64,000 nt of DNA, taken from an uncultured Bacteroidales bacterium. GTDB lineage: Bacteria > Bacteroidota > Bacteroidia > Bacteroidales > Bacteroidaceae. The stretch is taken from contig CACZBC010000001.1 of the NCBI GenBank assembly GCA_902779315.1, positions 1 through 64,000 of the forward strand, given 5' to 3'. Numbering within the stretch: position 1 is the stretch's first letter; the number at the start of each line of letters is the position of its first letter. The notes under the pieces are model-generated. The model had not been told where the DNA came from. It saw only the letters and a program-made list of their open reading frames with translations, and searched no databases. This document shows positions 7,362 through 59,355 of the stretch, piece by piece. The translations under genes were made by a program, and so were the position numbers.

Positions 7362-7456
7362 GCATCAGGAAACGTCCCAAGTGACGTTGCCAAATTACTA
7401 GTGTGACGTTTGCCAACGACACTGCCGATGTTTTGCTTGATGAAAAGTGACGAAAC
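7362..7456 (+). repeat. Array A of the 22-bp intergenic repeat
   Basis: Weakest member of the family. One good unit carries TACTAGTGTGACGTTTGCC (7395-7413) and is flanked by degenerate units at 23-bp spacing (GC at 7389, 7412 and 7435). It lies between the tRNA-Ser terminator and the nuclease gene; the rest of this 280-bp gap holds only a possible weak promoter near 7490. Confidence 0.65.
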
Positions 7457-7536
7457 TTTTCAACGGATTTCTTTGTCATGAGCGAAAAAAACACTAATTT
7501 TACACCTGAAAAGAAACGAAACTAAGACTGACGACT

Positions 7537-8460
7537 ATGAATAAGCGACATTTACTCTTTGCCTTGCTGACTTCGTTCTTGCTGATTTCCAGCAGGATGG
7601 CTTACTCGCAGGCTGAGGGAATGGAGATCCGGATGCTGACCTACAACATTCGTCATGGAGCAGGTATGGACGATGTAGTCGACCTGAACCGACAAGCTGC
7701 TGTGATTCAAGGCACTCAACCCGATGTAGTTGGGCTGCAAGAAGTGGACAGCTGTGTGAAAAGGTCTGGCTATATCCCTGAAGCAAAGATTTTGGGCGAT
7801 GCCCTTGGAATGTACAGCACTTTTGGCGCAGCCATCCCTCTGACTGGAGGCAAATACGGTGTTGCCATCCTCAGCAAGGAACGCCCTTTGTCTGTCCATC
7901 ATCTGCCTTTGCCTGGAGTGGAAAAGAGAACCTTGCTGGTCTGTGAATTCGAGAATTATGTGTTCGCTACAACTCATCTCGACCTCAACGATTCCTGCCG
8001 TTTCGCATCACTCCCCATCATTCTGGAAGAGGCAGCTAGTTGGGAGAAGCCATTCTTCATATGTGGCGATTGGAACGACGAACCAGCGTCGGCGCTCATC
8101 AAGCAGATGAGAAAAGACGGGTTCGTTTTCCTGAACGGCATCACTTCCAGCAGTCTGAATTACACATTCCCTGCTCCCAATCCGAACAAGACGATTGACT
8201 ACATAACGAGCTTCGGCCGAGTCACAAAGTCCACAACGGCTCGCAAAGTCATCAAGGAACCTGAAGCATCCGATCATCGCCCAGTCCTGGTTGGCGTTAC
8301 AATAGAAATGCCGACCTCCATCCAATCTCCATCGACCTCCATCGACGATGCGAAACTCGATGAAATATACGACCTTACGGGTAAAAAGGTTGAAAACGAG
8401 AACTTGTTGCCTGGACTGTATATACAGAAGAATAAGAGGAAGAAGTTCGTTATCCGTTGA
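7537..8460 (+). CDS. Secreted endonuclease/exonuclease/phosphatase-fold hydrolase
   Basis: 307 residues with a signal peptide (ending near SRMAYSQA). The fold marks are LTYNIRHG, GLQEVDS (metal-binding Glu), THLDLN, CGDWND and the final SDHRPV. The family includes nucleases, sphingomyelinases and inositol phosphatases; the substrate is not visible. The last 32 residues (8362-8457) form a tail IYDLTGKKV...GLYIQ...KKFVIR, like two other secreted proteins in the window, suggesting export and surface attachment. Its 3' end overlaps convergent tcdA by 11 bp. Confidence 0.85.
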   Translation: MNKRHLLFALLTSFLLISSRMAYSQAEGMEIRMLTYNIRHGAGMDDVVDLNRQAAVIQGTQPDVVGLQEVDSCVKRSGYIPEAKILGDALGMYSTFGAAIPLTGGKYGVAILSKERPLSVHHLPLPGVEKRTLLVCEFENYVFATTHLDLNDSCRFASLPIILEEAASWEKPFFICGDWNDEPASALIKQMRKDGFVFLNGITSSSLNYTFPAPNPNKTIDYITSFGRVTKSTTARKVIKEPEASDHRPVLVGVTIEMPTSIQSPSTSIDDAKLDEIYDLTGKKVENENLLPGLYIQKNKRKKFVIR

Positions 8461-9181
8461 TGTCTTGGATGACGAGACCAGCCAGAGTCATTCCAAAGAT
8501 GGCTGTGATGTGGGCAAGAGAGCCGTTAGTCTGCACTTTTCGAAAAGTCTGACTGCCGTCTTGAAATGCTTCTCCCAAGTTGGGTAGGGGCTGTTCCTCG
8601 CTATGAACACAGAGGAACTTGCGTTCAGGAAAGAGCTTGTTCCGTCTCATCGACGAACGCATAGCTGCAGCTAGGGGATCGCCTTTGATCTTCCAGAACT
8701 CCGAGACTCTCACTTTCGTAGGGTCAATCCGCAAGGCAGCACCCATAGAAGAGTAGAATTTGGCTTCCGTCTTCGTGGCTTGAAGGATGAGTTCTATCTT
8801 GTCGCGAAGCGAATCGATGGCATCGATAATATAGTCGTAAGTCTCTATCCTGAAGTCGTTTGCGGTTTCTTTGCTGAAGTTTATCTGCAAGGCTCGAATG
8901 TCAGCTTCTGGGTTTATCTCAAGCAAACGGTTTCGCAAAGCCTCAACCTTCGGTTCGCCAATAGTTTTAGTGGTTGCCATGAGTTGTCGATTGCAATTTG
9001 TGATGCAGACCTGATCGCTGTCGACAAGTGTGAGATGCATGATGCCTTCGCGTACAAGACACTCAGCACACCAACTGCCTACACCTCCAAGGCCGAAGAT
9101 GATGACGCGTTTGCTCTGAATACGTTTCATCGTATCCGCTCCAAGCAAAAGCTCTGTTCGATTGAATAAATCTCCAGTCAT
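8450..9181 (-). CDS. tcdA: tRNA threonylcarbamoyladenosine dehydratase
   Basis: 243 residues of the ThiF/MoeB/HesA (E1-like) fold. It has the nucleotide-binding loop GLGGVGSWCAECLVREG, VDSDQVCITNCNRQ and a later SSMGAALRIDPTKVRV. TcdA uses ATP to cyclise t6A37 of tRNAs to ct6A. Spacing of the motifs fits TcdA rather than ThiF or MoeB, which carry zinc CxxC pairs absent here. It stands alone on the minus strand and is convergent with the preceding nuclease gene. Confidence 0.88.
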   Translation of the reverse strand: MTGDLFNRTELLLGADTMKRIQSKRVIIFGLGGVGSWCAECLVREGIMHLTLVDSDQVCITNCNRQLMATTKTIGEPKVEALRNRLLEINPEADIRALQINFSKETANDFRIETYDYIIDAIDSLRDKIELILQATKTEAKFYSSMGAALRIDPTKVRVSEFWKIKGDPLAAAMRSSMRRNKLFPERKFLCVHSEEQPLPNLGEAFQDGSQTFRKVQTNGSLAHITAIFGMTLAGLVIQDING

Positions 9182-9301
9182 TTAACTGAAAAGTTTGAAA
9201 TTCGAGGATAAAGGTACGTTTTTTTTCATAATTAAAAGCCATTTTCACCCTCATTTATGGTTTTTTCGAAACTTTATGCTTTGTTTGTTGATATTTTTGT
9301 G

Positions 9302-9309
9302 TAACTTTG
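9302..9309 (+). promoter_or_regulatory. -7 box of the kduD operon
   Basis: TAACTTTG with a TTTG/TTG (-33) region near 9282-9290. It gives a leader of about 40 nt before the ATG at 9354 and drives kduD, the permease and kduI. Confidence 0.65.
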
Positions 9310-9353
9310 TCTACACGCTTTTGAACATTCAACATTTAATCAATAGAAACAAC

Positions 9354-10154
9354 ATGAGAAACATTTTTTCATTGGAAGGCAAGAATGCCTGGATTACAGG
9401 AGCTTGTTATGGCATTGGTTTCAGCATTGCGAAAGCCTTTGCAGAGGCTGGTATCAAGAACATCATCTTCAACTGTCGCAGCGAAGAAGCTATGCAGCGT
9501 GGTTTGGACAGCTACCATGAGGCTGGCATCGAGAACGTGAAAGGCTATGTTTGTGATGTGACTGACGAGCAGGCAGTGAAAGAACTCGTAGGGAAGATTC
9601 ATGCCGAAGTTGGGCAGATTGACATTCTGGTCAACAATGCAGGCATCATCAAACGTATTCCCATGCACGAGATGAAGCGCGAAGAGTTCCAGCAAGTCAT
9701 TGATATCGATCTTGTTGGGCCGTTCATTTGCTCAGCAGCTGTCGTCCCTGAGATGATGGAGCGCCGCGAAGGAAAGATTATCAACGTCTGCTCGATGATG
9801 TCCGAGCTTGGGCGTGAGACGGTTAGTGCGTATGCTGCTGCCAAAGGCGGCTTGAAGATGCTGACGCGCAACATTTGTTCGGAATACGGCGAATACAACA
9901 TCCAGTGCAATGGTATCGGCCCAGGATATGTTGCTACGCCGCAGACAGCTCCTCTTCGTGAACGCCAGGCTGATGGCAGTCGTCATCCATTCGACTCGTT
10001 CATCTGTGCTAAGACACCTGCAGGACGCTGGCTTAATCCTGAGGAAATAGGCGGTCCTGCTGTGTTCCTGGCCTCGCACGCTTCGGATGCCGTCAATGGT
10101 CATATCCTTTATGTAGACGGTGGTATTCTGGCTTATATTGGGAAGCAACCTTAA
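9354..10154 (+). CDS. kduD: 2-deoxy-D-gluconate 3-dehydrogenase / DKII reductase
   Basis: 266 residues from the ATG at 9354, chosen because MRNIFSLEGKNAWITGA gives the normal SDR N terminus and a promoter lies just upstream; the frame is open further upstream but that part is not SDR-like. Rossmann motif TGACYGIG (15-22), NNAG, catalytic YAAAK and a C-terminal DGGILAYIG. KduD reduces 3-deoxy-D-glycero-2,5-hexodiulosonate to KDG in the cytoplasm, the step after KduI in pectin-derived unsaturated uronate breakdown. It heads an operon with an EIIC-type permease and kduI. Confidence 0.85.
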   Translation: MRNIFSLEGKNAWITGACYGIGFSIAKAFAEAGIKNIIFNCRSEEAMQRGLDSYHEAGIENVKGYVCDVTDEQAVKELVGKIHAEVGQIDILVNNAGIIKRIPMHEMKREEFQQVIDIDLVGPFICSAAVVPEMMERREGKIINVCSMMSELGRETVSAYAAAKGGLKMLTRNICSEYGEYNIQCNGIGPGYVATPQTAPLRERQADGSRHPFDSFICAKTPAGRWLNPEEIGGPAVFLASHASDAVNGHILYVDGGILAYIGKQP

Positions 10155-10179
10155 CATTGATAATTGACAATCGAAGACT

Positions 10180-11550
10180 ATGGAACAGGTGTTCAGTTAT
10201 ATCATCAGTCTTGGGGCGTCGGTCATGATGCCTATCCTCTTTACCATTATTGGTCTCTGCATAGGCATGAAGTTCGGAAAGGCTTTGAAGTCAGGACTCT
10301 ACGTGGGCGTCGGTTTCGTGGGTCTCGGCATTGTGACGGCCCTGCTGACAAACAACTTCGGTACTCCGCTTTCTGAGATTTCAAGTCTGTACGATTTACA
10401 ATTGGGCGTATTCGACATGGGTTGGCCTGCAGCTGCAGCCGTGGCCTACAACACAGCAGTGGGAGCACTTATCATCCCAATCTGCTTGGGCGTGAATTTC
10501 CTGATGCTCATCACGAAAACTACGCGAACTGTGAACATAGACCTATGGAACTATTGGCACTTTGCATTCATCGGAGCTGTGGCGTATTTCGTTATGGGCG
10601 AGAGCTTGGCATGGGGCTATTTTGCCGCAATCGTTTGTTATATCAACACTCTGGTGATGGCTGACCTGACGGCAAGCAAGTTCCAAGGCTATTACGAGGG
10701 CATGGAGGGCATCTCCATTCCGCAGCCTTTCGTGCAGAGCTTCACTCCGTTTGCGATGCTTGCAGGCAAAGGACTAGACCTGATTCCCGGCTTTTCCAAG
10801 CTCGACATCGATGCAGAGGGACTGAAGAAGAAGTTCGGCGTGCTGGGAGAACCGTTGGTGCTGGGTGTAATTGTAGGTGCTTTGATAGGTGTATTGGCAC
10901 AGCTCGACATTAAGAAGGTATTGTTCTTAGGCGTAACAATGGGAGCTGTGATGGAACTCATCCCTCGTATCACGAGATTGTTTATTGACGGTTTGATGCC
11001 CATCTCGGAAAAGACTCAGGAAGTGGTGAAACGGAAGTTTAGTGGAAGAAAGATATATATAGGCATGTCGCCAGCACTCGTAATTGGTCATCCCACAACA
11101 CTTGTCGTCAGTTTGTTGCTCATACCTGTCACATTAGGCATTGCCGTCATCCTGCCTGGCAACGAGTTCTTGCCGTTAGCTTCGCTCGCAGGCTTGTTCT
11201 ATGTGTTTGTGATGGTTCTTCCATATACAAAGGGAAACGTTATAAAGACATTTATTATAGGTTTGATAGCATTGGCTGTCGGACTGTATTTTGTAACAGA
11301 CATGGCTCCGGCCTTTACGCAAGCTGCCCATACTGTATTTGAGCAGACAGGCGACAATGCCGCTAAGATTCCTGAGGGCTTCGAGGCCGGTGCACTCGAC
11401 TTTGCGTCCTCTCTTTTCGGTTGGGTTATTTATAAGTGCGTGAACAATCTGCAATGGATTGGAATGGTAGTATTGACGGCATTTACGCTTGGCATGATGT
11501 ACTACAACCGGCGGTGTATCGTCGCCGATGAAGCGAAAAGCGATAAATAA
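10180..11550 (+). CDS. Orphan PTS EIIC (galactitol GatC-type) permease
   Basis: 456 residues with about 11-12 hydrophobic segments and the look of galactitol-type EIIC: FGKALKSGLYVGVGFVGLG near the N terminus, DMGWPAAAAVAYNT, and GMSPALVIGHPTT in the second half. No EIIA, EIIB, HPr or EI gene is present nearby, and Bacteroidetes as a rule lack a working sugar PTS. Placed between kduD (25 bp upstream) and kduI (24 bp downstream), it is a good candidate for uptake of an unsaturated-uronate derivative by a PTS-independent mechanism. The family call is firm; substrate and energy coupling are inference. Confidence 0.85.
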   Translation: MEQVFSYIISLGASVMMPILFTIIGLCIGMKFGKALKSGLYVGVGFVGLGIVTALLTNNFGTPLSEISSLYDLQLGVFDMGWPAAAAVAYNTAVGALIIPICLGVNFLMLITKTTRTVNIDLWNYWHFAFIGAVAYFVMGESLAWGYFAAIVCYINTLVMADLTASKFQGYYEGMEGISIPQPFVQSFTPFAMLAGKGLDLIPGFSKLDIDAEGLKKKFGVLGEPLVLGVIVGALIGVLAQLDIKKVLFLGVTMGAVMELIPRITRLFIDGLMPISEKTQEVVKRKFSGRKIYIGMSPALVIGHPTTLVVSLLLIPVTLGIAVILPGNEFLPLASLAGLFYVFVMVLPYTKGNVIKTFIIGLIALAVGLYFVTDMAPAFTQAAHTVFEQTGDNAAKIPEGFEAGALDFASSLFGWVIYKCVNNLQWIGMVVLTAFTLGMMYYNRRCIVADEAKSDK

Positions 11551-11574
11551 GAATAACAAAATAACAAAACGACA

Positions 11575-12549
11575 ATGAAGAAAATATTTTTAATCCTGAT
11601 GCTTATGGGAAATCTTACATCTGGTCTCGCCCAGCAAAAGATGACCTTCCAGAAGGCTTGTCATCCCGATGATGTGAAGCACTACGATACTCAGACTCTG
11701 CGCGACCGCTTCGTGATGGAGAAGGTGATGGCAGCTGACGAAATCAATCTGACCTATTCGATGTACGATCGTTTTATTTTCGGAGGAGCAATGCCCGTCA
11801 CGAAGGAGTTGAAGTTGGAAACAGACCCTCAACTCCGTGCTGACTATTTCATGCGTAACCGCGAGTTGGGTATCATCAATACTGGCGGCGAAGGTTCGGT
11901 CATTGTCGACGGCCAGGAATACCCCCTCGGTTATCGTGAGGCCCTCTATGTAGGGCGCGGATGGCTTGGCAAGGACAAGGACGGCAAGGACATCGACTCG
12001 AACAAGGAGGTCATCTTCCGCTCGAAGGATGCCAATAACCCTGCGAAGTTCTACCTGAACTCAGCTACAGCCCATCATCACTACAAGACTCAATGGATTA
12101 CGCTGGATGGCCGCAAGAACGGCAAGATACAGAGCCTCAAGGCTACCGTTACCGGTCCGCTTGGCACCCTGGCCGAGTCGAACCAGCGCACCATCTACCA
12201 GCTCATCGTCAACACCTCGCTCGAGGAAGGTCCCTGTCAGTTGCAGATGGGACTGACCCAACTGCAGGAGGGCAGTGTATGGAACACGATGCCACCTCAC
12301 ACTCATGGTCGTCGCGTAGAAGCCTACTATTACTTCAATGTGCCTGAAGGTCAGACCGTAAGCCACATCATGGGCGAGCCGCAGGAGAGTCGCGTGGTAT
12401 GGCTGCACAACGAGCAAGCCATCATGTCGCCCGAGTGGAGCATCCATTGTGCAAGTGCTACGTACTACTATACCTTTATATGGGGTATGGCAGGAGAGAA
12501 CCTGAACTATAATGACAAAGATGTCATTCAGGTAGGAGACTTAAGATAA
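11575..12549 (+). CDS. kduI: 4-deoxy-L-threo-5-hexosulose-uronate ketol-isomerase with signal peptide
   Basis: 324 residues. From about residue 28 it matches KduI along its full length: [41 protein letters not shown] with the zinc-binding HxH and Glu, WSIHCAS with the last zinc His, and [10 protein letters not shown]. The enzyme converts DKI to DKII. Unlike enterobacterial KduI (about 278 residues, cytoplasmic) it begins with a clear signal peptide, [19 protein letters not shown] then QQ, which predicts a periplasmic enzyme. It is last in the kduD-permease-kduI operon and convergent with DUF2264. Confidence 0.92.
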
Positions 12550-12566
12550 ATCAGGCGACTATTTGG

Positions 12567-16075: not shown

Positions 16076-16090
16076 GGTATGTAAGTTGTT

Positions 16091-23371: not shown

Positions 23372-23481
23372 GCAAACGACTAGTGTGACGTTTGCGATTT
23401 ACTAGTGTGACGATTGCGATTTACTAGTGTGACGTTTGCATTTGTATAGTGTTACGTTTCTAATCGTATAGTGTTAAGTAT
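23372..23481 (+). repeat. Array B of the 22-bp intergenic repeat (5 units)
   Basis: Five consecutive units of exactly 22 bp, starting at 23372, 23394, 23416, 23438 and 23460. Units 1-3 carry ACTAGTGTGACGTTT or a one-base variant; units 4-5 carry TATAGTGTTA. The array lies in the divergent gap between rel and the first PepSY-like gene. Confidence 0.9.
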
Positions 23482-23590: not shown

Positions 23591-23860
23591 ATGAAGAAGA
23601 TTCAACTTTTACTGGCTATGACTGCCATCTTGTTCCTGGCAACAGGCTGTGATTTTAACCGCAAGAAGATTCTGACCGTAGAGCAGCTCCCAGAAGCGGC
23701 CCAGACCTATATCAAGGAGAATATGCCTGAGGCAAAGGTGCTCTATGTGAAGAAGGAAAGGAAGAATTTCAAGACCTACTACGAAGTCAAGTTCGACAAC
23801 CTGATGGAGCTCGAATTCGACAGTAAGGGCGAGATTTACGACATTGATGTAGACGATTAA
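23591..23860 (+). CDS. PepSY-like (DUF2874) lipoprotein
   Basis: 89 residues. The N terminus (LLLAMTAILFLATGC) is a lipoprotein signal with Cys20 as the anchor. The body holds one PepSY-like unit, LPEAAQTYIKENMPEAKVLYVKKE...YYEVKF...ELEFDSKGEIYDID. Such proteins are common, often tandem, exported Bacteroidetes proteins of unknown role, related to inhibitor-like BLIP folds. It lies 22 bp before a second member of the family. Confidence 0.88.
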   Translation: MKKIQLLLAMTAILFLATGCDFNRKKILTVEQLPEAAQTYIKENMPEAKVLYVKKERKNFKTYYEVKFDNLMELEFDSKGEIYDIDVDD

Positions 23861-29060: not shown

Positions 29061-29170
29061 GCCAACGCAGCATGTGAAGATGCCGGGCTTGACGTGTTAC
29101 GATTGCGATTGTATTGTGTTATGCAGGCCTTCGTATAATGTTACGTTCGCATCGTTGACTGGTGTCATCC
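29061..29170 (+). repeat. Array C of the 22-bp intergenic repeat (5 units)
   Basis: Degenerate units begin with GC at 29061, 29082, 29105, 29127 and 29149 (spacing 21, 23, 22, 22). The motif appears as TATTGTGTTA and TATAATGTTACGTTC. It lies just downstream of rnz. Confidence 0.75.
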
Positions 29171-29311: not shown

Positions 29312-29472
29312 GCGTCTCAGTGTCTCAGTGTCTCAGTTCGATTTCAAGGGGTGTATGATGGCGAAAAATGAATCTATTATATATATTTATTTTAATAAAT
29401 ATATATAATAGAATTTTCTTTTGGGAATTTGTACGCTTGTTTTTTAACTGAGACGGTGAGACGGTGAGACGG
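29312..29472. repeat. Nested inverted repeat with central perfect palindrome
   Basis: Outer arms are triple 8-bp repeats: GTCTCAGT-type words at 29314-29337 and GAGACGGT-type words at 29450-29472, nearly complementary to each other. Between them lies a 40-bp AT-only-rich palindrome (29373-29412): two perfect 19-bp arms separated by TT. The whole can fold into a long stem on either strand. No coding frame crosses it. Confidence 0.85.
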
Positions 29473-29744
29473 TAGTCCGTCGTGAATTGTGTCTTTTCAG
29501 GAAAAGGCTTGACTCGTTTAAGCCGTTGATTTTTAACACTTGTCTACCCTTACGGAAAAGATTGACTTGCTCACCTGGGTAGAGTTGTCTTCTTTCTCTG
29601 AAGCCCTGAAATTCGAAAACACGATACAATTCAATACCATGAAAATGCCTCCTTTTGCCTCGAAATTGGTTGCCTGCTGCAATTCCTTGGCCTCATGTTA
29701 TGCAAAAATTGCGAAGAAAGCTTTGCCAAATGACAAGAAATACG

Positions 29745-29752
29745 TAATTTTG
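29745..29752 (+). promoter_or_regulatory. -7 box of the repetitive secreted protein gene
   Basis: TAATTTTG with TTTG at 29722-29725 (-33 region). This decides the start at 29777 over an open frame that extends about 240 bp further upstream. Confidence 0.65.
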
Positions 29753-29776
29753 CACTTGAATAACCATATTACGGAC

Positions 29777-31369
29777 ATGAAAACTATCGTTAAAGCCATA
29801 TTCGCTTGCCTCCTGATGCAAGTTGTATTCACCGGTTCGGCATCAGCTCAGGCACTCTACAACAACCCCGATACCATTCAGAAGTACCTGAAGGACCGTA
29901 TCGTCGAAGTGAAAGAACAGTTGAGGGCTACTCGCACCCAACTAAAAGAGGAAGAGAAGAAGCTTCGAACCCTCAATCGCGACCTCGAAAAGTCTCGTAC
30001 GCAGGCTCAAAGGGACAAGGTTAAGCTGAAGGAGGCAAAGCGCAACGGCAAGTTCTATCAGGTGAAGCCCTACATCCCCGAAGAACTTCAGGGCGATGTG
30101 GAAGCCAAGATAAAAGCCGCCAAGGAGGCTAAGGCTGCCAAGGAGCGCGAAATCAAGGCAAAAGAGGCTGAGAAGAAAGCTGAGGCAAAGGCTGCAAAGG
30201 CTGCCAAGAAGCAGGCTGAGCAGGACGAGAAGGACCAGCTGAAGGCTTCGGCAAGGAGCCAGCAGAAACGGGCTCGCCAGAAGAAAGCCGAACAGAAAGC
30301 TCAGGAAAAAGAGAATGAACAAATTGCCAAGCAGGAGGAAGCAGACCTGAAGGATGGCGTTAAGGGCGATAATGTCGAGGAAGGCAACGGCAAGAATGTC
30401 GTCGAAGACAACGGCAAGAAGGTAGAGAAGGACTCTGCAGGAAAGGATAATGGAAAATCCGACGAGAAGAAAGCTTCAGCCAAAGATAAGGAATCGGATG
30501 GAAAAGCTCCAGCCGGCAAAGGCAAGGACGATGTCCTGCCAGACGAAAAGGTTCCTGTAATCCAAGACCAGGGCAAAAACGATGCCAACACTGGCAAAAA
30601 CGATGGAAATCAGGGCAAAAACGATGCCAACACTGGCAAAAACGATGGAAATCAGGGCAAGAATGATGCCAACCAAGGCAAGAGCGGCAAGGATAACGGC
30701 AAAGCCGATGTTGGTAAGGATAACGGCAAAGCCGATGCTGGTAAGGACAATGGCAAAGCCGATGCTGGCAACGATAATGGCAAAGCCGATGTAGGCAAGG
30801 ATAATGGAAAGGCTGATGCCGGCAAGGATAATGGCAAGGCCGATGCCGCTCCGAAGAAAGCCTCCAGCAAGGCTCCTGCAGGCAAAGACAATGGAAAAGC
30901 CTCTTCTGGCAAGGACAATGGCAAAACCGATACAGGTAAGAACAACGGCAAGGGAAAAGAAACCGCTTCCACAAAGGGTAAGGGTAAAACCCAGAAGTCG
31001 GAAAGCGCCTTAGAAAAGGAAGCTGCTGCAAAGGCTGAGAAAGAAGCTGAGAAGAATGCCGAGAAGGCTGAAAAGGAAAAGGAGAAGGCCGTGAAGGCTG
31101 CCGTAAAGGATGCTGAAAAAGCAGCCAAGGAAGCTGAACAGCGCGCCAAGGAATCGGAGGCCAAAGCAAAGGCTATAGAGAAGGAAAAAGAGGATTCTGT
31201 TCCTGAAGTGGAGGGCTCTGCGGAAGAGACAGACGAGGAAGCCGAAGAGGCAAAGCCCAAGAAACGCACCTATACTGTTCGCGCTCAACGCCAGAGAGCC
31301 GCCAAGAAGAGCGGGGAAACCGAAGAGAGCAAGGAGCAGAAGGAAGAAGAACAGAATACCCCAGAATAA
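29777..31369 (+). CDS. Secreted Lys/Ala/Asn-rich repetitive protein
   Basis: 530 residues from the ATG at 29777. A signal peptide (MKTIVKAIFACLLMQVVFTG to about SASAQA) is followed by a coiled-coil-like Lys/Glu/Ala region (about 40-190), then repeats: GKNDANT/GKNDGNQ alternations (about 30585-30675) and about seven copies of the octapeptide GKDNGKAD(V/A) (about 30690-30850), then a second Lys/Ala/Glu helix-rich region and an acidic end. The composition is strongly basic-acidic and it has no cysteines. No family is recognised. It may be a cell-envelope spacer or DNA/polyanion-binding protein. The 24-bp DNA repeat suggests copy-number variation by slippage. Confidence 0.8.
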   Translation: MKTIVKAIFACLLMQVVFTGSASAQALYNNPDTIQKYLKDRIVEVKEQLRATRTQLKEEEKKLRTLNRDLEKSRTQAQRDKVKLKEAKRNGKFYQVKPYIPEELQGDVEAKIKAAKEAKAAKEREIKAKEAEKKAEAKAAKAAKKQAEQDEKDQLKASARSQQKRARQKKAEQKAQEKENEQIAKQEEADLKDGVKGDNVEEGNGKNVVEDNGKKVEKDSAGKDNGKSDEKKASAKDKESDGKAPAGKGKDDVLPDEKVPVIQDQGKNDANTGKNDGNQGKNDANTGKNDGNQGKNDANQGKSGKDNGKADVGKDNGKADAGKDNGKADAGNDNGKADVGKDNGKADAGKDNGKADAAPKKASSKAPAGKDNGKASSGKDNGKTDTGKNNGKGKETASTKGKGKTQKSESALEKEAAAKAEKEAEKNAEKAEKEKEKAVKAAVKDAEKAAKEAEQRAKESEAKAKAIEKEKEDSVPEVEGSAEETDEEAEEAKPKKRTYTVRAQRQRAAKKSGETEESKEQKEEEQNTPE

Positions 31370-36688: not shown

Positions 36689-36691
36689 AAA

Positions 36692-37557: not shown

Positions 37558-37621
37558 AAAAACATCACACGTGAAGTTTGCGATTTTCACACTTGATGTT
37601 TGCCAACTTCACACGTTAAAT
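37558..37621 (+). repeat. Array D of the 22-bp intergenic repeat
   Basis: Short array (about 3 units) with GC at 37580 and 37602. It uses the variant TTCACACTTGATGTTT/TTCACACGT. It lies between the nuclease gene and the terminator of the SusC operon. Confidence 0.75.
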
Positions 37622-37629
37622 AAAAAAAG

Positions 37630-44870: not shown

Positions 44871-44980
44871 TAAAATTTAACACGTCAACTTTGCCAACAT
44901 AGCACGTTACGATAGCAAACGTAACACTATACGTTTGCCAACATATAACGTTACGTTTGCGATTTAACTATGTTACGTTT
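44871..44980 (+). repeat. Array E of the 22-bp intergenic repeat (5 units)
   Basis: Units at 44871, 44893, 44915, 44937 and 44959, each exactly 22 bp. The unit at 44915-44938 (with the next GC) is a perfect dyad: GCAAACGTA and TACGTTTGC around ACACTA. It lies upstream of the SusC promoter and downstream of the thioesterase gene. Confidence 0.9.
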
Positions 44981-47382: not shown

Positions 47383-47492
47383 GTAAACGACTGCAGTGTC
47401 ATTCGCAAACGTCACACTATACAAATGCAAACGTCACACTATACAAATGCGAACGTAACACTATATGTTTGCCAACGAGGAACGGTATGTTT
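47383..47492 (+). repeat. Array F of the 22-bp intergenic repeat (5 units)
   Basis: Units at 47383, 47405, 47427, 47449 and 47471, each exactly 22 bp. Units 2 and 3 are identical (AAACGTCACACTATAC core). The array lies between the ABC exporter promoter and the end of the HAD gene. Confidence 0.9.
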
Positions 47493-52539: not shown

Positions 52540-52543
52540 TTTT

Positions 52544-52577: not shown

Positions 52578-52604
52578 AGGTTGCTCCTGCTCAGAAGATT
52601 CCAC

Positions 52605-52689
52605 TTATCATCCCTACGTCGGTATTGTCCGAATCAGGTGAGGAGGGTTTGATCTCAGCCCGCCACTTTGACAGGCACCCCTTGATAAT
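52605..52689 (-). promoter_or_regulatory. TPP riboswitch (THI element)
   Basis: The minus strand carries P1 arms TTATCA (52684-52689) and TGATAA (52605-52610), the conserved GGGGTGCC, GGCTGAGATCAAACCC and ACCTGATTCGGA...GACGTAGGGA segments of TPP aptamers. It stands between promoter and start codon of the TonB receptor gene. Confidence 0.95.
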
Positions 52690-52696
52690 TCGGCTG

Positions 52697-52751: not shown

Positions 52752-52810
52752 GCGCAAAAGTAGCTCGACGCTAGTCTTCCGCCTGCGCCTGAGCACCTAC
52801 GGCGCGCAAG

Positions 52811-52863
52811 AAGGTACGAAAAAGCAAGAGAAAAACAAAATAATTCTTTATTTTTATTTCCGA
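52811..52863 (-). repeat. Promoter-cassette repeat, copy 2
   Basis: Same 53 bp as copy 1 with two mismatches, but its -7 box reads TACCTTCT, so this copy is probably a weaker or inactive promoter. The 59 bp between the copies hold no gene. Confidence 0.85.
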
Positions 52864-52874
52864 CCGAAGAATCG

Positions 52875-53159
52875 CTAGCCTTTCTTCGGTTTCTTGGGGA
52901 ACCAGCCTCTTTCCACCCTCTTTCTCTGCTGGAAAAGCTCCAGAATCGACCAGAAACACGAGAAACTGAAGACGCCAAGCAACACCGATATGTAGATGCT
53001 CTCGACAAACAGGGAACCGATGCAGCCGGCAATCCCCAAGACGAGGAAAACGGGCCAGCACTTCACGCCGAAATGGTATTCGCATTTGATGACGATGGGG
53101 TGGAAGACTCCGATGCACAGGAAAGTCCCCAAGCCCAATATGATGCCGTGATAATTCAT
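52875..53159 (-). CDS. DUF4491 small membrane protein
   Basis: 94 residues from the ATG at 53159 (MNYHGIILGLGTFLCIGVFH). It has three hydrophobic segments and ends ELFQQRKRVERGWFPKKPKK, the typical DUF4491 pattern of Bacteroidetes and Firmicutes (FHPIVIKCEYHFG near the N terminus). The longer frame upstream reads through its promoter and is rejected. The function is unknown. It has its own promoter with the repeated cassette. Confidence 0.88.
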   Translation of the reverse strand: MNYHGIILGLGTFLCIGVFHPIVIKCEYHFGVKCWPVFLVLGIAGCIGSLFVESIYISVLLGVFSFSCFWSILELFQQRKRVERGWFPKKPKKG

Positions 53160-53179
53160 CCAATTCCCTTTTTCGGCTG

Positions 53180-53187
53180 CAAAGGTA
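53180..53187 (-). promoter_or_regulatory. -7 box of the DUF4491 gene
   Basis: TACCTTTG with CAGCC after it on the minus strand; the sequence from 53181 to 53229 is a diverged third copy of the promoter cassette. Another TACCTTTG-like box occurs at about 53256. Confidence 0.7.
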
Positions 53188-53351
53188 CGAATAAGAGAGC
53201 GAAATACCAAATTTATTTGAGTATTTCCGAGCGGAAGTACTTTCGACGAAGTCAAAGGTACGAAAATAATTCATAATTCATAGTTCATAATTCATAATTA
53301 TTTCTGAAGAAATCAAGAATTAAGAATTATTCATCGTCCCTCAGTCAGAAT

Positions 53352-53461
53352 GCGAACTTCACGTTTGACGTTTGCAAACGTATAGTGTGACGATGGCGAT
53401 TTACTAGTGCGACGTTTGCATTTAACTAGTGTGACGTTGGCAATTACCTAGTGTGATGATT
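53352..53461 (+). repeat. Array G of the 22-bp intergenic repeat (5 units)
   Basis: Units at 53352, 53374, 53396, 53418 and 53440, each exactly 22 bp. Three carry ACTAGTGTGACG or a close variant. It lies in the large gap between the DUF4491 promoter and the polymerase genes and runs directly into a second, different array. Confidence 0.9.
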
Positions 53462-53463
53462 TT

Positions 53464-53592
53464 GTGATTTTCGCGCGAAAAAAGTTGATTTTCGCACAGA
53501 AAAAAGTGCGTTTTTGCACTGAAAAAGTGTGATTTTCGCACTGGAAAAGTTCTTTTTGCGCAGAGAAAAGTGTCATTTTCGAATGTGACGAT
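53464..53592 (+). repeat. Second array with TTTTCGCAC-type units
   Basis: Six units of 20-22 bp starting with GT at 53464, 53484, 53506, 53527, 53549 and 53570. Each has the pattern GTG/GTT, TTTT, CGCAC-like core and a GAAAAA end. The spacing matches the preceding array although the sequence differs. Confidence 0.8.
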
Positions 53593-53629
53593 GGTGTTTT
53601 ATGACGGGGGTGTGTGATGACAGAATGTT

Positions 53630-53764
53630 AAATGTTGCATGTATATGATACAAAAAACACAGACTGTACCCCCCGGTGTCTATGGTCAATATTATTTATA
53701 ATAATATTGAAGAATAATTCTAGGGTATAGTCCCTTTTAAATGTTGCCGATACATGCAACATTT
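53630..53764. repeat. Three-level nested inverted repeat
   Basis: Outer perfect 15-bp arms AAATGTTGCATGTAT (53630-53644) and its complement (53750-53764); middle arms GACTGTACCC and GGGTATAGTC (about 53672-53681 and 53724-53733, one mismatch); inner perfect 10-bp arms CAATATTATT/AATAATATTG (about 53688-53710). No gene is seen in it. Confidence 0.8.
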
Positions 53765-54011
53765 TACATTTGCCCTGCTTTGTCCACGAAATCCCCCTCG
53801 TTTTCCTGTCTGAAAAGAAATGCCTGTCTTGGCACGAAATCCGGAACCCCCGAAAAACCCCTCTCTTTTGCCTCAGAATCGCTTCAAAATGTCTTCGACG
53901 TGATTTATACCTCCGAGGCAAAAACAGCGCTCTACGATGCCTTAAAACGAGCCGTTAAAATTCTTTGAATTTTATATTACAATCAGTTTGGCGGAATTCG
54001 TGAAGTGAAGG
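53765..54011. other. Gene-free stretch, possible coding remnant
   Basis: No gene supported. A plus-strand open frame ends at 53968 with SLQNVFDVIYTSEAKTALYD and looks somewhat protein-like, but its N terminus lies in the inverted repeat and has no promoter or start context, so it may be a remnant or chance. Confidence 0.4.
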
Positions 54012-54185
54012 TTAATCTGTGTTGTAGTCCTCTATGTGTTCCTGAGCCGTTTCTTCGATGGCTTCTTCGTGGCCAGTCAGGGCTGCAAAAGGGGCGAATT
54101 GAGCAGCTCGCTGAAGCATGGACATCTGCGGATGTTTCTTTGAAACATGATGTGGCAGGTTGATGATATCGTCAAATGCTTTCAT
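54012..54185 (-). CDS. YolD-like partner of a Y-family polymerase
   Basis: 57 residues, read directly from the minus strand: MKAFDDIINLPHHVSKKHPQ, then MSMLQRAAQFAPFAALTGHE and a short acidic end. The DIINLPHHVS...P.MS...RAAQFAPFAALTG pattern is the small protein commonly next to Y-family polymerases in Clostridia (YolD-like). Its start lies 9 bp after the polymerase stop, so it is translated from the same mRNA. It may be a polymerase accessory subunit. Confidence 0.85.
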   Translation of the reverse strand: MKAFDDIINLPHHVSKKHPQMSMLQRAAQFAPFAALTGHEEAIEETAQEHIEDYNTD

Positions 54186-54194
54186 AACTAAGGA

Positions 54195-55607
54195 CTACGC
54201 TTTGTGACCGCCAATTTGTTTGTTTCTCTCTCTCGCCGTTGCGCCTTCGGCATAGCTGGTCCCTTTCAGGATGGCATTCTTGCCAAAACGCTTCTTGATT
54301 TTGATCAGGGCTTCCTGGATTCTGCGCTCTTTCTTCTTGTTTTCCTTCTCTTTGAGGATGGCATCGTAATCGGTGAAAAGGTCGAGCTGAGCAGGGCCGT
54401 TGTCTGCTGCCTCTTGTCTGTTGCCTTCTGCAATGATGTGATTCGTCGATATGTTCAAGCGACGGATTAACAAATCCTTGTTAGCTATTCTGTCGTACAA
54501 CGAGATAACGGCATTGATGATTTCTTTGCTCGAGGAACTGTGGCTGCCCAGATTCGCCGTTCCATGAGCGTGTTTTGGCACAGGTCTGCCGTAATGGTCC
54601 AGCACGACTTCCCCATGATATTTCGATGCGATTTCTGGCCTTGTCAGGCTCTCCCTGTCGTAACTGACGGTCAGGACAAGCTGGTTGGTGACAAGGCGCT
54701 TTTCCACGAGGTCGAGACTGATGGCATCTGCCATTTCCATGACGACATTTCTGGCCTTTTCGAAGGTGTAGGGTTCTGTCAGGACTTGCCCGCTACTCAT
54801 GGAATTCGTCTCTGGTCGGTAGGCTTTGACGAGGTCGATGGTGCAGGGCTCCCACCCCCAAGCATGATCTATGAGCAGCTCGGCATTCACGCCAAAGAGC
54901 TTGTACAGAAGTTCTTCATTGTCAACGGATTGGCGAGCCACTTTCCCCATTGTGTCGAGGCCGTACCTGGCGAGCCTTTCCGCTGTGCCTCGTCCCACAC
55001 GCCAGAAGTCTGTGATGGGGAAGTGGTTCCAGAGCTGCTTCCGATACGCCATTTCGTCGAGCTCGGCAATGCGAACGCCATCCTCGTCTGCGGGCATTTT
55101 CTTCGCCACAATGTCCATCGCGACTTTGGCGAGATACATATTCGTTCCGATGCCTGCAGTAGCTGTGATCCCGGTCTGTTTAAGGACGTCCCGAATCATC
55201 ATGATGGCCAATTCGTGAGCCGTCTTCTTGTAGGTGGCGAGATAATCCGTGACGTCCATGAAGACTTCGTCTATGCTGTAAACGTGAATGTCTTCCGGAG
55301 CGATGTATTTCAGGTAGATATCATAGATTTTGCAGCTCACCTCGATGTATTTCGCCATTCTGGGCGTGGCAATGATGAAATCGACGCCCCGGGCCTTCTG
55401 CTTGACCTCGAAAAGTCTTGCTCGACCTGGGATGCCGAGTTTCTTCAGTGAAGGGGAAACCGCAAGACATATCGTCTTGTCCGTTCTGCTCTCGTCTGCC
55501 ACAACAAGGTTTGCGGCAAGAGGGTCGAGACCTCGTTCCACACATTCCACACTGGCGTAGAACGACTTCAGGTCGATGGCGATATATAGGCGGTTTCCAC
55601 TTTTCAT
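54195..55607 (-). CDS. Y-family DNA polymerase (UmuC/UvrX-like)
   Basis: 470 residues. Palm motifs IAIDLKSFYASVE (Asp12) and YSIDEVFMDV (Asp113, Glu114), a helix-hairpin-helix segment, a little-finger domain and a clamp-binding QLDLF motif near residue 415. It copies damaged DNA. Its shape and the YolD-like neighbour resemble Clostridia enzymes more than Bacteroidetes DinB, which suggests acquisition. The last base of the preceding receptor gene coincides with its first base region (55607), so it is tightly packed downstream of that receptor. Confidence 0.9.
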   Translation of the reverse strand: MKSGNRLYIAIDLKSFYASVECVERGLDPLAANLVVADESRTDKTICLAVSPSLKKLGIPGRARLFEVKQKARGVDFIIATPRMAKYIEVSCKIYDIYLKYIAPEDIHVYSIDEVFMDVTDYLATYKKTAHELAIMMIRDVLKQTGITATAGIGTNMYLAKVAMDIVAKKMPADEDGVRIAELDEMAYRKQLWNHFPITDFWRVGRGTAERLARYGLDTMGKVARQSVDNEELLYKLFGVNAELLIDHAWGWEPCTIDLVKAYRPETNSMSSGQVLTEPYTFEKARNVVMEMADAISLDLVEKRLVTNQLVLTVSYDRESLTRPEIASKYHGEVVLDHYGRPVPKHAHGTANLGSHSSSSKEIINAVISLYDRIANKDLLIRRLNISTNHIIAEGNRQEAADNGPAQLDLFTDYDAILKEKENKKKERRIQEALIKIKKRFGKNAILKGTSYAEGATARERNKQIGGHKA

Positions 55608-57712
55608 TACTTCAGATGAATGTCGATGGGGATGTTGACTTTGACGCAGAAGTTCCTGCCCATAGCCGAGATGCCTTGCCTCCCTGAAATGGCTTCAGTC
55701 TCGACATATTTCAGTCTGGAAAGGTGCGGCTGATAGACTTTGTCGAGGAGGTTCTGGCAGGAGAAGGTGAGCTCGATGCAGTTGTGCCCGAAGATGTGCA
55801 AGTCCATGCCTGCAGAGAGGTTGAAGAGCGTATAGCTTGGGGTAGCCGTCTCAGTACCGTCGAGAGCGTAGAACTTGTCTTGTTTGAGATTGCATTCTGA
55901 ACCAAAGGCAAGGAAAGTACGACGGCAACGGCCTTTTGCGAAGTCTGGGAACTCGTATCGCACATCGCAAGTCCACCTTGGGGCTGGCATCATGGGCAAG
56001 TTCTTGCTCTCTTCAGGCTGGTGAAGTTGGAGGCCTCGAACATAGCTGAAAGCATTCTCGATGTGGAGCGGATTGAAGGGATGGACATCGACAGAAACCT
56101 CTCCACCCATCAGCCTGGCATCTCCCTGACGATATTGGTAGGTTCGGAAGCCGTCAGTTTCGTAGGGAAGACGAGCCAAGAAGATATAGTCGTCAATCCA
56201 ATTGCAGAAGAGTGATGCCTGAAGGTTCACGAAGTGGGATGTGTAGTCCATTCCCAAGTCAATCTGCGTGCTCTTTTCCGCCTTGAGTCCTCCGTTGCCC
56301 AACTCGTATTGTATGCTGCCTTCATGCACGCCATTCGATGAGAGTTCGCTCACTGTGGGAGCTCTGAAACCTCGAGCGGCATTGAGTCGGAGGTTGAGTC
56401 GGTCTGTCACATTCCATACTGCACCCAGGCTCCCAGTAACGCCTGAAAAGTTCTTGCTCAGTTCCTCAAAACGCAGCACTCCATCCTCCAACAGAGAAGA
56501 TGTGTTGAGATGTCTGTTGTCGAAGCGCGCTCCACCAGAGAAGTGCCACTTCTTCCATTCCCATTCTGCCGTAGCAAAGAAGCCGATATCGAAGAGGTGA
56601 TGGTCTGGAATCAGGTATTCTTCGCCCTGATTGACATTCTTTTGCCACATTCCACCAATGCCCGTCGAGAGCTTCCAGTCGTGGGGTAGGGAGTGGAGAT
56701 ACTTGATGTCGTAGTTGACAGTATGCAGCCTCATTGCCAACTCAGGCTCAACCTCCTCCTCGAATTCCCTTCGATAGTTCTGCTGATAACCGATGATGGC
56801 CTTCAAAGTGCCGTCTCCAAAGTACCAGGCATTATCGCTAACGGCCTTAGTATGAAGCACTTTCTGATAGGGCGGCTCTATGCCATAACGCTTTCCGTCG
56901 AAGTCGCTGCCGACAAGTTCACCTTCTGTAATGCCTGGCGTGAAGTTGACTCTTGAGAAGCGAAGCCAGCTGTGTCCCCAATTTCTGTTGATGCCGAGCA
57001 TGCCCTGAACATCGCGTTCCTTGAACCAAGTGCCTGGAACATAACCGTCTGCCTTGTTCTTGTAGGAATGGGCAGCCTTGTCCAGGAAGTGCCAATTCCA
57101 AACGAATCCGTTCAGATTCCCTGCAAAGCCTACATGATAGTCATAGAGTCCGTTGTTCGATTGGTACTGACTGCCCACCTTGACCTGCATCGTGCCCATC
57201 TCCAAAGGGTGTTCTGGATGCAGAATCATCACGCCGGCAATGGCGTCGCTGCCATACATGAGCGAGGCTGGACCTTTCAGAACCTCGACAGAATGGACGC
57301 CTTCCTCGTCCACTTCCAGTCCGTGCTCATCTCCCCATTGCTGCCCTTCCTGACGAATTCCCTGGTCAACAACTACAACCCGATTGTAGCCAAGGCCGCG
57401 AATGACAGGCTTCGAGATGCCGGTTCCTGTGCTTATCTGGGAAAGGCCGGGAAGATAACTTACTGCATCTACCATATTGGTTCCCACGGAGTTATGTAGT
57501 AGTTTTGGTGAGACAACCATGAAGGGCGAAGCCGCATCCTTGAGTCGTTGGATGCCTGCAATACCTTGCACGGTAACTTCGCTCAGGATGGCTTCCTTCA
57601 TCGGACTTATGCTGTCGTCATGGCAATCGCTATGTTCGTGGACATTTTGTGCTGAAATGTGTGGAGAGATTGCCCATAAGCAGACTCCTATATATAAGAT
57701 AATGTGTTTCAT
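55607..57712 (-). CDS. TonB-dependent receptor, ZnuD-like
   Basis: 701 residues from the ATG at 57712 (MKHIILYIGVCLWAISPHIS signal peptide); an upstream in-frame ATG at 57760 would add 16 non-signal residues. The mature start HEHSDCHDDS is His/Cys/Asp-rich, a likely metal-binding lid. Plug motif VIRGLGYNRVVVVDQGIRQEG and SLMYGSDAIAGVMILHPE follow; the barrel ends near VNIPIDIHLK. It resembles the zinc/copper receptor group (ZnuD-like). The upstream Cys/His-rich small protein supports metal uptake. The metal identity is inference. Confidence 0.85.
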   Translation of the reverse strand: MKHIILYIGVCLWAISPHISAQNVHEHSDCHDDSISPMKEAILSEVTVQGIAGIQRLKDAASPFMVVSPKLLHNSVGTNMVDAVSYLPGLSQISTGTGISKPVIRGLGYNRVVVVDQGIRQEGQQWGDEHGLEVDEEGVHSVEVLKGPASLMYGSDAIAGVMILHPEHPLEMGTMQVKVGSQYQSNNGLYDYHVGFAGNLNGFVWNWHFLDKAAHSYKNKADGYVPGTWFKERDVQGMLGINRNWGHSWLRFSRVNFTPGITEGELVGSDFDGKRYGIEPPYQKVLHTKAVSDNAWYFGDGTLKAIIGYQQNYRREFEEEVEPELAMRLHTVNYDIKYLHSLPHDWKLSTGIGGMWQKNVNQGEEYLIPDHHLFDIGFFATAEWEWKKWHFSGGARFDNRHLNTSSLLEDGVLRFEELSKNFSGVTGSLGAVWNVTDRLNLRLNAARGFRAPTVSELSSNGVHEGSIQYELGNGGLKAEKSTQIDLGMDYTSHFVNLQASLFCNWIDDYIFLARLPYETDGFRTYQYRQGDARLMGGEVSVDVHPFNPLHIENAFSYVRGLQLHQPEESKNLPMMPAPRWTCDVRYEFPDFAKGRCRRTFLAFGSECNLKQDKFYALDGTETATPSYTLFNLSAGMDLHIFGHNCIELTFSCQNLLDKVYQPHLSRLKYVETEAISGRQGISAMGRNFCVKVNIPIDIHLK

Positions 57713-57840
57713 TTTGCTTCCATTTAATGCGGATTTCGTGTCCTCCTTCATGCGCAGCACTAAGCGCGACAGTCAGGAAGATTATTTGTTTGCTGGATTT
57801 CTGTTTGAAAAAATTTGGAGAATAATGATGTCTTTGTATT

Positions 57841-58185
57841 TCAAACAGTTGGAGGAGCACGAAGACTGACGAAATCATGCCCGATACGACTGGGAATCTG
57901 GCAGTATTGGACATAAGTGACTTTGCTTTTTGGCTGATAACATAGCAATGGTTTTGTTGCAGTCGAGACATAAGACAATGTCAGTATTTGACACAACAGG
58001 CATTGGTGCGTCCCATCCGAGAACTGCGACAAATGTCCGTGACATTGGTGTTGCACGCATTCTGAACAGGTCGTCTCGCCATATTCGTCTGCATTATGGA
58101 TATGGAGCGACGAGAAGAGGAGCATCGGCAAATATGTCGCCAAAAGCACCCACGCTGCGATATGTCTCTTTGTTATCAGGTTCAC
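57841..58185 (-). CDS. Small Cys/His-rich exported protein (DUF2946-like)
   Basis: 114 residues with one N-terminal hydrophobic segment (AAWVLLATYLPMLLFSSLHIH) followed by a Cys/His cluster: TTCSECVQHQCHGH and HQCLLCQIL. It resembles small DUF2946-type proteins found beside metal TonB receptors. It sits 129 bp upstream of the ZnuD-like receptor on the same strand and is probably cotranscribed. A role in periplasmic metal binding is likely but unproven. Confidence 0.75.
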   Translation of the reverse strand: MNLITKRHIAAWVLLATYLPMLLFSSLHIHNADEYGETTCSECVQHQCHGHLSQFSDGTHQCLLCQILTLSYVSTATKPLLCYQPKSKVTYVQYCQIPSRIGHDFVSLRAPPTV

Positions 58186-58249
58186 AACTGCAAAGTTATG
58201 ACTTCTTTTTTCAAATGAAACTACTTCTTATCCGAAATTCTGAGATGTT

Positions 58250-58882
58250 TTATCCTACGAGTCGCAATATCTGTCTTTCCGTTGCTTCAGGAAGGATTTT
58301 CTTGAACTGCTCGACGAGTTTTTCGAAGGAGGCTTCTGGGGGACAGTCTTTCCTGCAGAAATCCTTTCCACAAAGGGCTTCTGGAGTGTTCAGGAGGGAC
58401 CAGCCCCAGCCATATTCCCTGCCTCGCTTGTCGACGGGATACACGAAATCTTCTGTGACGATATAGGTCGCCATTTCCAACTTGGTGATGTAACCGTCGA
58501 ACTTCGACCTCATTCCCTTTCCGTTGAAGCCGCAGGCCGAACGCAACTCTCTGGTAATCAGGCTCCCAGTAGACCTCAAGGTGTCGAGGATGGTGCCTTC
58601 GATGGAGTCGGGGGAAGGGTGGGGGAATATGCTTCTTCGGTAGTTGCAGAAGTCGGCCCACCATTCCTTGCTGATGAAGCCGGCTTTCTTGTTGAAGAAC
58701 TTTCCGTAGAAGCAGGGCATATCGGTCACAATCTGCCCTTTCCATTTCCATAGCGGCCAATCCCAGCCTCCGTCGTCGAAGACCACATATCGGCAGTCGT
58801 CGTCGACCATCTCTTCGGCCGAGAAGCCTGGGATTCCGCTGTCGAGAAGAGGCAGGAAACCAATCTCGTCGATAAGTTCCAT
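58250..58882 (-). CDS. AlkZ-related winged-helix protein
   Basis: 210 residues from the ATG at 58882 (MELIDEIGFLPLLDSGIPGF). The frame is open upstream but overlaps the rubredoxin gene in another frame, so the shorter start is preferred; a few extra residues from a non-ATG start are possible. Features of AlkZ-related proteins: WPLWKWKGQI, YGKFFNKKAGFISKEWW, ILDTLRSTGSLITRELR and GWGWSLLNTPEALCG. The AlkZ family contains DNA glycosylases for interstrand crosslinks; the activity of this subgroup is not known. It is 31 bp downstream of rubredoxin. Confidence 0.78.
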   Translation of the reverse strand: MELIDEIGFLPLLDSGIPGFSAEEMVDDDCRYVVFDDGGWDWPLWKWKGQIVTDMPCFYGKFFNKKAGFISKEWWADFCNYRRSIFPHPSPDSIEGTILDTLRSTGSLITRELRSACGFNGKGMRSKFDGYITKLEMATYIVTEDFVYPVDKRGREYGWGWSLLNTPEALCGKDFCRKDCPPEASFEKLVEQFKKILPEATERQILRLVG

Positions 58883-58913
58883 CAGCTCTGCTGCAGAGCC
58901 GATGCCGCTTCGT

Positions 58914-59072
58914 TTACTCACTTGCGAACTGGTCTTTGCCAACACCACAAAGCGGGCATTCGAAATCTTCAGGAACTTCTTCCCAAGGTGTGCCGGGAGC
59001 GATGCCCTTTTCGGGTACTCCAACTTCGGGGTCGTATTCCCAACCGCATACTTCACAAACGTACTTTGCCAT
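58914..59072 (-). CDS. Rubredoxin
   Basis: 52 residues read directly from the minus strand: [20 protein letters not shown] and then a [16 protein letters not shown] end. Two CxxC pairs (Cys6/Cys9, Cys39/Cys42) bind one Fe, and the length is standard. It is a small electron carrier, in anaerobes typically for oxygen and peroxide detoxification. It has its own promoter and leads a short operon with the AlkZ-related gene. Confidence 0.95.
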
Positions 59073-59119
59073 AGTTTTTTCTGTTTAGAGGGTTTATAAT
59101 CTTTGTTAACTCTGCTCTG

Positions 59120-59127
59120 CAAAGATA
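59120..59127 (-). promoter_or_regulatory. -7 box of the rubredoxin gene
   Basis: TATCTTTG with CAGA after it on the minus strand, about 47 nt before the ATG. Confidence 0.7.
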
Positions 59128-59222
59128 TGAACTTTTCCCATATCCTGCAAATTCTTCCTACAAAAAAAAACTTAAAAAACGATAGGTCTCCAGCAGTCCT
59201 TGATGACGACAAAGGTGAAGTT

Positions 59223-59355
59223 GCCAATCTTCACGTTAGTCATTTGCAATCTTCACGTTAGTCATTTGCAATCTTCACGTTTGATGTTTGCAATCGTAAC
59301 ACTATGCGTTTGCCGTTTTCACACGTTATATTTGCAATCTTCACTGCCTTCGTTT
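59223..59355 (+). repeat. Array H of the 22-bp intergenic repeat (6 units)
   Basis: Units beginning with GC at 59223 (23 bp), 59246, 59268, 59290, 59312 and 59334 (22 bp each). Most are the TTCACGTTAGTC/TTCACGTTTGAT variant; unit 4 is the classic AACACTATGCGTTT. It lies in the divergent gap between rubredoxin and UpxY. Confidence 0.9.

Follow-up and report, generated by a model that had tools for sequence, protein, structure and literature searches.

The window analysed here, a stretch of 64,000 nucleotides from an uncultured Bacteroidales bacterium of the family Bacteroidaceae (contig CACZBC010000001.1, assembly GCA_902779315.1), carries eight intergenic arrays in which a short degenerate unit recurs every 22 bp. 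Eight loci of this kind had been claimed in an earlier interpretation of the letters (the sequence-only reading). We checked them by reading the gaps, with Tandem Repeats Finder, and with an independent profile scan, for which the position matrix came from 322 units outside the window, the score covered three in-phase units, and 20 Markov-simulated windows served as the null. The profile recovered exactly the same eight loci, at scores of 31 to 98 and above the null maximum of 6.9. Scans with spacings of 17-27 bp likewise found eight loci, which speaks to the loci and not to the spacing, because a single strong unit is enough. All eight lie between predicted genes, as had been claimed.

Genomes and sampled stretches are given below by our own handles, G000 being the source genome, and units are counted with weak edge units included. 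The array at 7.4 kb (7368..7433, plus strand; score 45.8) follows a tRNA-Ser gene and has three units with a single strong core at 7399-7413. At 23.4 kb a RelA/SpoT-like gene and a gene at 23591 diverge from a gap that holds five units (23372..23481, plus). Four degenerate units at 29.1 kb (29061..29148, plus) give the lowest score of the eight, 31.2. The array at 37.6 kb (37558..37623, minus), with three units of the CACACGTG type in a convergent gap, has about two units more at the orthologous place in G112; together with those at 7.4 and 29.1 kb it is among the weakest loci. Five units, the first of them weak, lie at 44.9 kb (44871..44980, minus), with an array at the same place in G112 and G132, and again at 47.4 kb (47383..47492, minus), where the gap exceeds that of G132 by 22 bp and neither G027 nor G005 showed an array in the corresponding gap. 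The profile scan places five units at 53.4 kb (53352..53461, plus) and six, mainly of non-core types, in a divergent gap at 59.3 kb (59224..59355, minus). The sequence-only reading counted five arrays of five units where we count four; the tally varies with the definition of the edge, since the 44.9- and 47.4-kb arrays each include an edge unit that scores about zero.

Directly beside the 53.4-kb array, at positions 53462-53990, lies another array (TTTTCGCACAGAAAAAAGTG), AT-rich and with a period near 22/21 bp, and behind it some 400 bp more. Stretches L119 and L054 also have the array part, and pieces of the remainder occur at 80-91% identity in five other G000 stretches, so this is probably a separate dispersed element.

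The unit, its step and its placement in the source genome

The source genome is a draft of 2.83 Mb, about 84% complete, and the other genomes are likewise drafts in many contigs. Contigs C1-C4 (432,732 bases) form an unselected sample of it, and the majority of stretches L119-L138 were picked around matches. Genes were called with our own hexamer script, a simple gene finder, or from open reading frame (ORF) masks. The frame in G000 is GC followed by 20 bases, the common unit being GC[G/A]ATTTACTAGTGTGACGTTT, and units in the same frame may instead carry the cores CACGTG, AACGTG or AACACTATAC, among others. Allowing one mismatch, the core TAGTGTKACGTTTGC matches the whole genome 465 times, against a single match for the reversed pattern.

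The claimed 22-bp recurrence is borne out across these samples. Contigs C1-C4 contain 39 arrays at lag 22 and between zero and three at every other lag from 15 to 30; if the density were even, 39 per 433 kb would extrapolate to about 250 arrays in the 2.83-Mb genome. Core pairs less than 200 bp apart in the same 433 kb, with up to two mismatches, are separated by 22, 44, 66, 88, 110 or 132 bp, the sole exception being 31 bp. By period, 71 of 112 intergenic arrays in G000 fall at 22 bp, 10 at 44 and 5 at 66. A step search gave 22 bp in 354 of 364 steps, a count biased by the detection of the arrays through lag 22. Arrays have 3 to 11 units, with a mean of 5.8. Core pairs 22 bp apart are never oppositely oriented (at most two mismatches), which lends no support to site-specific inversion of single units.

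Identity of the units to the consensus is 0.39 one unit beyond the edge and rises from the edge to the centre through 0.63, 0.77 and 0.84 to 0.86, a gradient that arises partly by construction because a weak frame score set the array ends. Neighbouring core units share an identity of 0.831 (n = 194), while the figure is 0.730 for pairs that lie in one array without being neighbours (n = 288) and 0.747 for pairs taken from different arrays; the units of one array are more alike than those of other arrays only when adjacent.

Of the 85 arrays counted in 793 kb of G000, not one lies by more than half of its length inside a predicted gene. The 82 arrays with both neighbours known lie in 52 tandem, 19 convergent and 11 divergent gaps, compared with 140, 33 and 62 among background gaps of at least 100 bp (the array gaps were not filtered by length). 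The earlier statement that arrays follow no single gene orientation therefore holds for the eight loci and fails in this larger sample. Arrays prefer gene 3' ends, from which they lie at a median distance of 27 bp, compared with 155 bp for 5' ends.

Lineage-specific motifs and partly shared sites across the genus

Arrays with a 22-bp step are a newly found, genus-wide class in which the step is common to the species and the motif differs by lineage. The unselected congener sample comprised 748 kb in 39 of 40 stretches, one being dropped as mostly N; stretches L159-L178 and L199-L218 were picked independently of matches, L139-L155 were mostly selected around pattern matches, and L068-L098 were taken for holding the tandem core. 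Of the 70 intergenic tandem arrays in the unselected congener stretches, 31 repeat at 22 bp, the next commonest period being 23 bp with 5 arrays, and in the same listing 13 of 19 readable congener genomes have intergenic arrays of 22 or 44 bp. Among other families of the order (706 kb), period 22 accounts for 4 of 39 intergenic arrays, two of them in G060, and period 23 for 5. One 22-bp array outside the genus lies in G060 (L158 10709-10807, TAGCAGGGTTACAAATCCGCGC). Two 23-bp arrays with one motif, CTCACAAGTTTGTCA, lie in G054 of another family (L194 8227-8303 and 9626-9762); these are local, the motif matching its genome just five times.

The motifs themselves are proper to lineages. We found AWKGGTTAASCWTT in G012 and G024, GTCCATAGCGGGAC in G021, CTCCCCTAGGGGAG in G002, ATGACCGGTCAT in G016 and GAGTCCATGTGCGTGGACTC in G029, and the common motif of a lineage is absent from some arrays of a genome. 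A two-unit GGTTAACC pattern matches 85 times in G012 and 78 times in G024 (both-strand counts that include some places twice because the site is palindromic), with no match in ten other genomes or for the reversed control. Although any step between 22 and 25 bp would have satisfied this pattern, the step is 22 in all but one among the matches listed. The G000 core matches 265 times in G132, 220 in G112, 8 in G005 and 2 in G094, and has no match in G008, G027, G076 or G035. The tandem core also occurs in three ruminant metagenome-assembled genomes labelled 'Bacteroidaceae bacterium' (RGIG9745, RGIG10220 and RGIG7250). Over the window region, nucleotide identity in the best pieces is 90% for G112, 89% for G008, 87% for G132 and 83% for G027 and G005. 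A loose TTTGC triplet pattern brought to light arrays of other sequence in many congeners and matches in 106 of 121 genomes, many with few matches and not all of them arrays; it served only for finding arrays because its reversed control matched too in a large number of genomes (283 versus 266 in G000), the arrays containing both words.

Between G000 and its closest relatives, arrays lie at the same places, with alignable edge units and replaced inner units. At orthologous sites most gaps are equal in length or differ by 22 or 44 bp; we also saw differences of 2 or 3 bp, of 29 and 50, one of 242, and large differences at gaps that had been replaced. Inside or beside arrays we counted 24 indel events, of which three measure 1 bp, eight 2 bp and seven 22 bp. 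At one site (site A) an array is inverted between species, and at another (site B) the array is absent in G000 and the gap rearranged. Relatives with the same motif have an array at 13 of 14 ends that bear one in G000, against 2 of 29 remaining ends, a retention biased upward because most of these loci had been sampled for the arrays they hold. Where the two species differ in motif, an array is shared at 6 of 21 ends, against 2 of 105 ends without an array in the first species. All reciprocal different-motif pairs give 8/30 versus 5/173 (p 7e-5), and gaps of at least 100 bp in both species give 8/27 versus 2/37 (p 0.013); these pairs are not all independent, as some genes recur, and gaps were measured between genes of at least 300 nt only. 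The sharing of array positions across species of different motif is supported, not strongly.

Several other features of the window deserve mention. A thiamine pyrophosphate (TPP) riboswitch lies at 52594-52692 on the minus strand, and a short dispersed TAATTCATAATTC-rich repeat at 53163-53330 recurs in 11 of 41 G000 stretches (the window counted) and in relatives. Octamer repeats GTCTCAGT and TGAGACGG, in opposite orientation with about 110 bp between them, occupy 29313-29473. Coding tandem repeats of 21, 27 and 42 bp (30567-30846) lie within a 609-aa ORF (29540-31369) that has no Pfam match.

A possible lattice of protein sites and its rivals

We tentatively read the arrays as DNA-level site lattices for a putative, probably dimeric DNA-binding protein, and give this reading slightly less than an even chance. 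Such a protein would dock on each unit, probably as a dimer, and neighbours 22 bp apart, about two helical turns, would sit on one face of the DNA, where bound molecules might touch. Underwound DNA in cells is closer to 11 bp per turn, and 22 bp would then make two turns. For relaxed DNA, PMC3795714 cites a value of about 10.6 bp per turn. The arrays would be retained in intergenic DNA, chiefly right behind gene stops, with a site sequence proper to each lineage and a spacing common to the species. As a guess, they might help to organise the nucleoid or act as roadblocks to transcription where genes end. The same-face binding proposed by the sequence-only reading fares best in the tests made here, although the binding itself is something we infer.

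The constancy of the step also shows in a chain search that allowed 18-26 bp and chose the site nearest 22 where several were candidates: 22 bp was found in 23 of 23 steps in G012 and G024 (9 arrays, 32 units) and in 63 of 63 in G000. Between the GGTTAACC sites of G012 and G024, the linkers vary in sequence and are fixed in length, with 0.3-1.1 bit per column versus up to 2.0 in the core, and at the seven variable linker columns neighbours resemble each other only slightly more than random pairs do (0.45 versus 0.37). Dyad symmetry of the species consensus was tested in four sets, chosen after the motif listing was known, and three of them show it (p 0.0055, 0.001 and 0/2000 shuffles; 0.32 in G021). 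Paired dyad positions are mostly without covariation, except for one G000 pair and junction pairs in G002, which fits half-sites and not hairpins. Fixed-length variable linkers, the equal likeness of non-adjacent units within and between arrays, the dyad consensus and the lack of a transcribed-strand preference together favour sites kept in step over a self-copying minisatellite.

Several observations pull the other way. The motif turns over fast, with 465 core matches in G000 and 8, 0 and 0 in G005, G008 and G027, a pace that would be odd if a conserved regulator read these sites. The unit that dominates in G000 is no palindrome, the dyad sets were not chosen blind, and an earlier palindrome test by array gave mixed results, with p <= 0.05 in 16 of 57 arrays (some loci overlap, and some arrays are counted twice). 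Matching for gap length weakens the sharing of positions: with every stretch included, p is 0.046, 0.17 and 0.59 at thresholds of at least 100, 150 and 200 bp, the samples with the longer gaps being small, and the unselected stretches by themselves give 0.27 to 0.52. Small indels in or near arrays are not clearly rarer than in other intergenic DNA, and the arrays out-fold shuffled sequences somewhat as RNA. Adjacent units are more alike than others, which with the 22- and 44-bp differences between orthologues indicates that tandem duplication is also at work.

The main rival to the lattice is a satellite-like selfish or neutral repeat, whose units would duplicate by slippage or unequal exchange and whose loci would exchange sequence until each lineage had its consensus. 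The 22-bp length would descend from an ancestral array, and arrays would persist only where harmless, that is, after genes. The edge-to-centre gradient (in part an artefact of how ends were set), orthologous sites that differ in copy number by 22 or 44 bp while keeping their edge units, the higher likeness of adjacent units and the lineage-wide turnover of motifs are all consistent with this. It accounts less readily for non-adjacent units of one array that are no closer than units of different arrays, for a linker length that stays constant despite sequence variation, and for unrelated motifs sharing one period. Because adjacent likeness, 22-bp gains and losses, and motif turnover all weigh against the lattice, we hold that reading only at the level stated above and regard the satellite-like repeat as a serious if less probable competitor.

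The sequence-only reading had offered a decayed mobile element and a structured RNA as alternatives, and neither gains support. Elements derived from a transposon, such as miniature inverted-repeat transposable elements (MITEs) of the BrickBuilt type, would be dispersed to intergenic sites as these arrays are, the published layout in Porphyromonas gingivalis is similar (PMC4596501), and the inversion at site A would suit them. No terminal inverted repeats or target duplications were found, however. BrickBuilt-type terminal repeats number 8 near 91 arrays versus 13.2 at random places, and repeats like GAGACCTTTGCA of the BrickBuilt leader and tail number 8 in the window with 7.35 expected; direct duplications of at least 6 bp across the array occur at 11 of 91, versus 13.7 with shuffled partners, and none reaches 8 bp. 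The retention of arrays by same-motif relatives, biased upward as it is, also argues against this origin, as does the lack of any clean empty site among the aligned orthologous pairs, and we judge it improbable. Still less probable is a transcribed 3'-untranslated-region RNA element or terminator, which the position directly behind stop codons and folds somewhat better than shuffles (median z -2.15, below -2 in 53%, in a sample of 45 among the 91 arrays) would fit. Core orientation relative to transcription is balanced (21 sense, 23 antisense), arm mismatches are without a G-T excess (180 G-T versus 199 A-C), folding favours the sense strand in 28 of 54, and terminator-like hairpins are about equally common with arrays (17/81) and without (34/127). 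Rfam gives no match at the window arrays or the five loci searched, and arm pairs mostly fail to covary. We give hardly any credence to repetitive extragenic palindromes and their doublets (REP/REPIN) mobilised by a REP-associated tyrosine transposase (RAYT). The arrays are extragenic, lineage-specific and frequently palindromic, as these would be, but Y1_Tnp (PF01797) has no match in G000, at its roughly 84% completeness, and none in 17 of 23 same-genus genomes, the source genome included. A phage origin was also considered and rejected, the tandem pattern having no match in viral contigs.

A broader form of the lattice reading, which we consider unlikely, is that the 22-bp pitch and some places are inherited throughout the genus while the recognised sequence is swapped genome-wide in each lineage, together with the specificity of a putative abundant cooperative protein. 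Such a swap might resemble the mutual replacement of centromere satellites and their proteins. If true, this would be a chromosome-organising or gene-end-insulating bacterial system new to science. More generally, a spacing common to species whose sequences differ leads to the prediction that the sequence is read by a lineage-specific protein and that the length of the step makes a difference. Were a protein to bind, the genus would supply numerous natural cases of exchanged sites and readers, from which to learn how DNA-binding specificity changes across a whole genome; if none does, the arrays would represent satellite-like turnover in bacteria, with preserved edges at dispersed loci.

Comparison with known repeat systems

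In searches of the open-licence literature on Prevotella, Bacteroidetes, Bacteroidales and bacteria at large, none of the papers listed describes such arrays in its title or abstract. The claim that no named Bacteroidetes element has this form nonetheless needs qualifying, as BrickBuilt of P. gingivalis is a relative of sorts and the nearest described element (PMC4596501). It is a MITE reported from P. gingivalis and P. gulae with 23-nt intergenic arrays, 19 copies per genome, and a unique leader and tail carrying IS5-like terminal repeats; the paper also states that tandem repeats of 22, 23 and 41 nt had been noted in P. gingivalis W83, and P. gingivalis repeats are a subject of PMC5771137 as well. 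BrickBuilt and the present arrays have in common their order, Bacteroidales, their dispersed, intergenic tandem arrays of a short unit, and a unit number that varies by strain at a locus. The arrays described here differ in having a step of 22 and not 23 bp, a density of 39 per 433 kb, no such ends, and a spread over many species with unrelated motifs.

Other systems share some traits with these arrays. REP elements, whose hairpins have a GTAG/GGAG foot, and bacterial interspersed mosaic elements (BIMEs) are numerous short dyad elements after genes, and so far the likeness holds; here the units form strict direct arrays at 22 bp, never in opposite orientation at that distance, and no RAYT was found. 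Ends of the Tn7/Mu type carry arrays of 22-bp transposase sites. The TnsB/MuA-type transposase family PF09299 matched in none of 41 genomes, a weak negative because the 14 control genomes were silent too, and HTH_Tnp_1_2 (PF13022) has no match in G000, the genome searched. Eukaryotic satellite DNA is known for its edge effect and concerted evolution, which the conserved or older edges, uniform centre and lineage-wise consensus recall. Our arrays differ in their small size of three to eleven units, in their dispersal over the gene ends of bacteria, and in being, neighbours excepted, no more uniform than the genome-wide pool. Operator and iteron arrays are helically phased sites, and they resemble ours in direct repeats about two turns apart, dyad sites, and a variable linker of fixed length. 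Whereas those belong to a single origin or promoter, the present arrays are spread genome-wide and their protein is a putative one. Among bacterial dispersed repeats, a shared spacing without a shared sequence is unusual.

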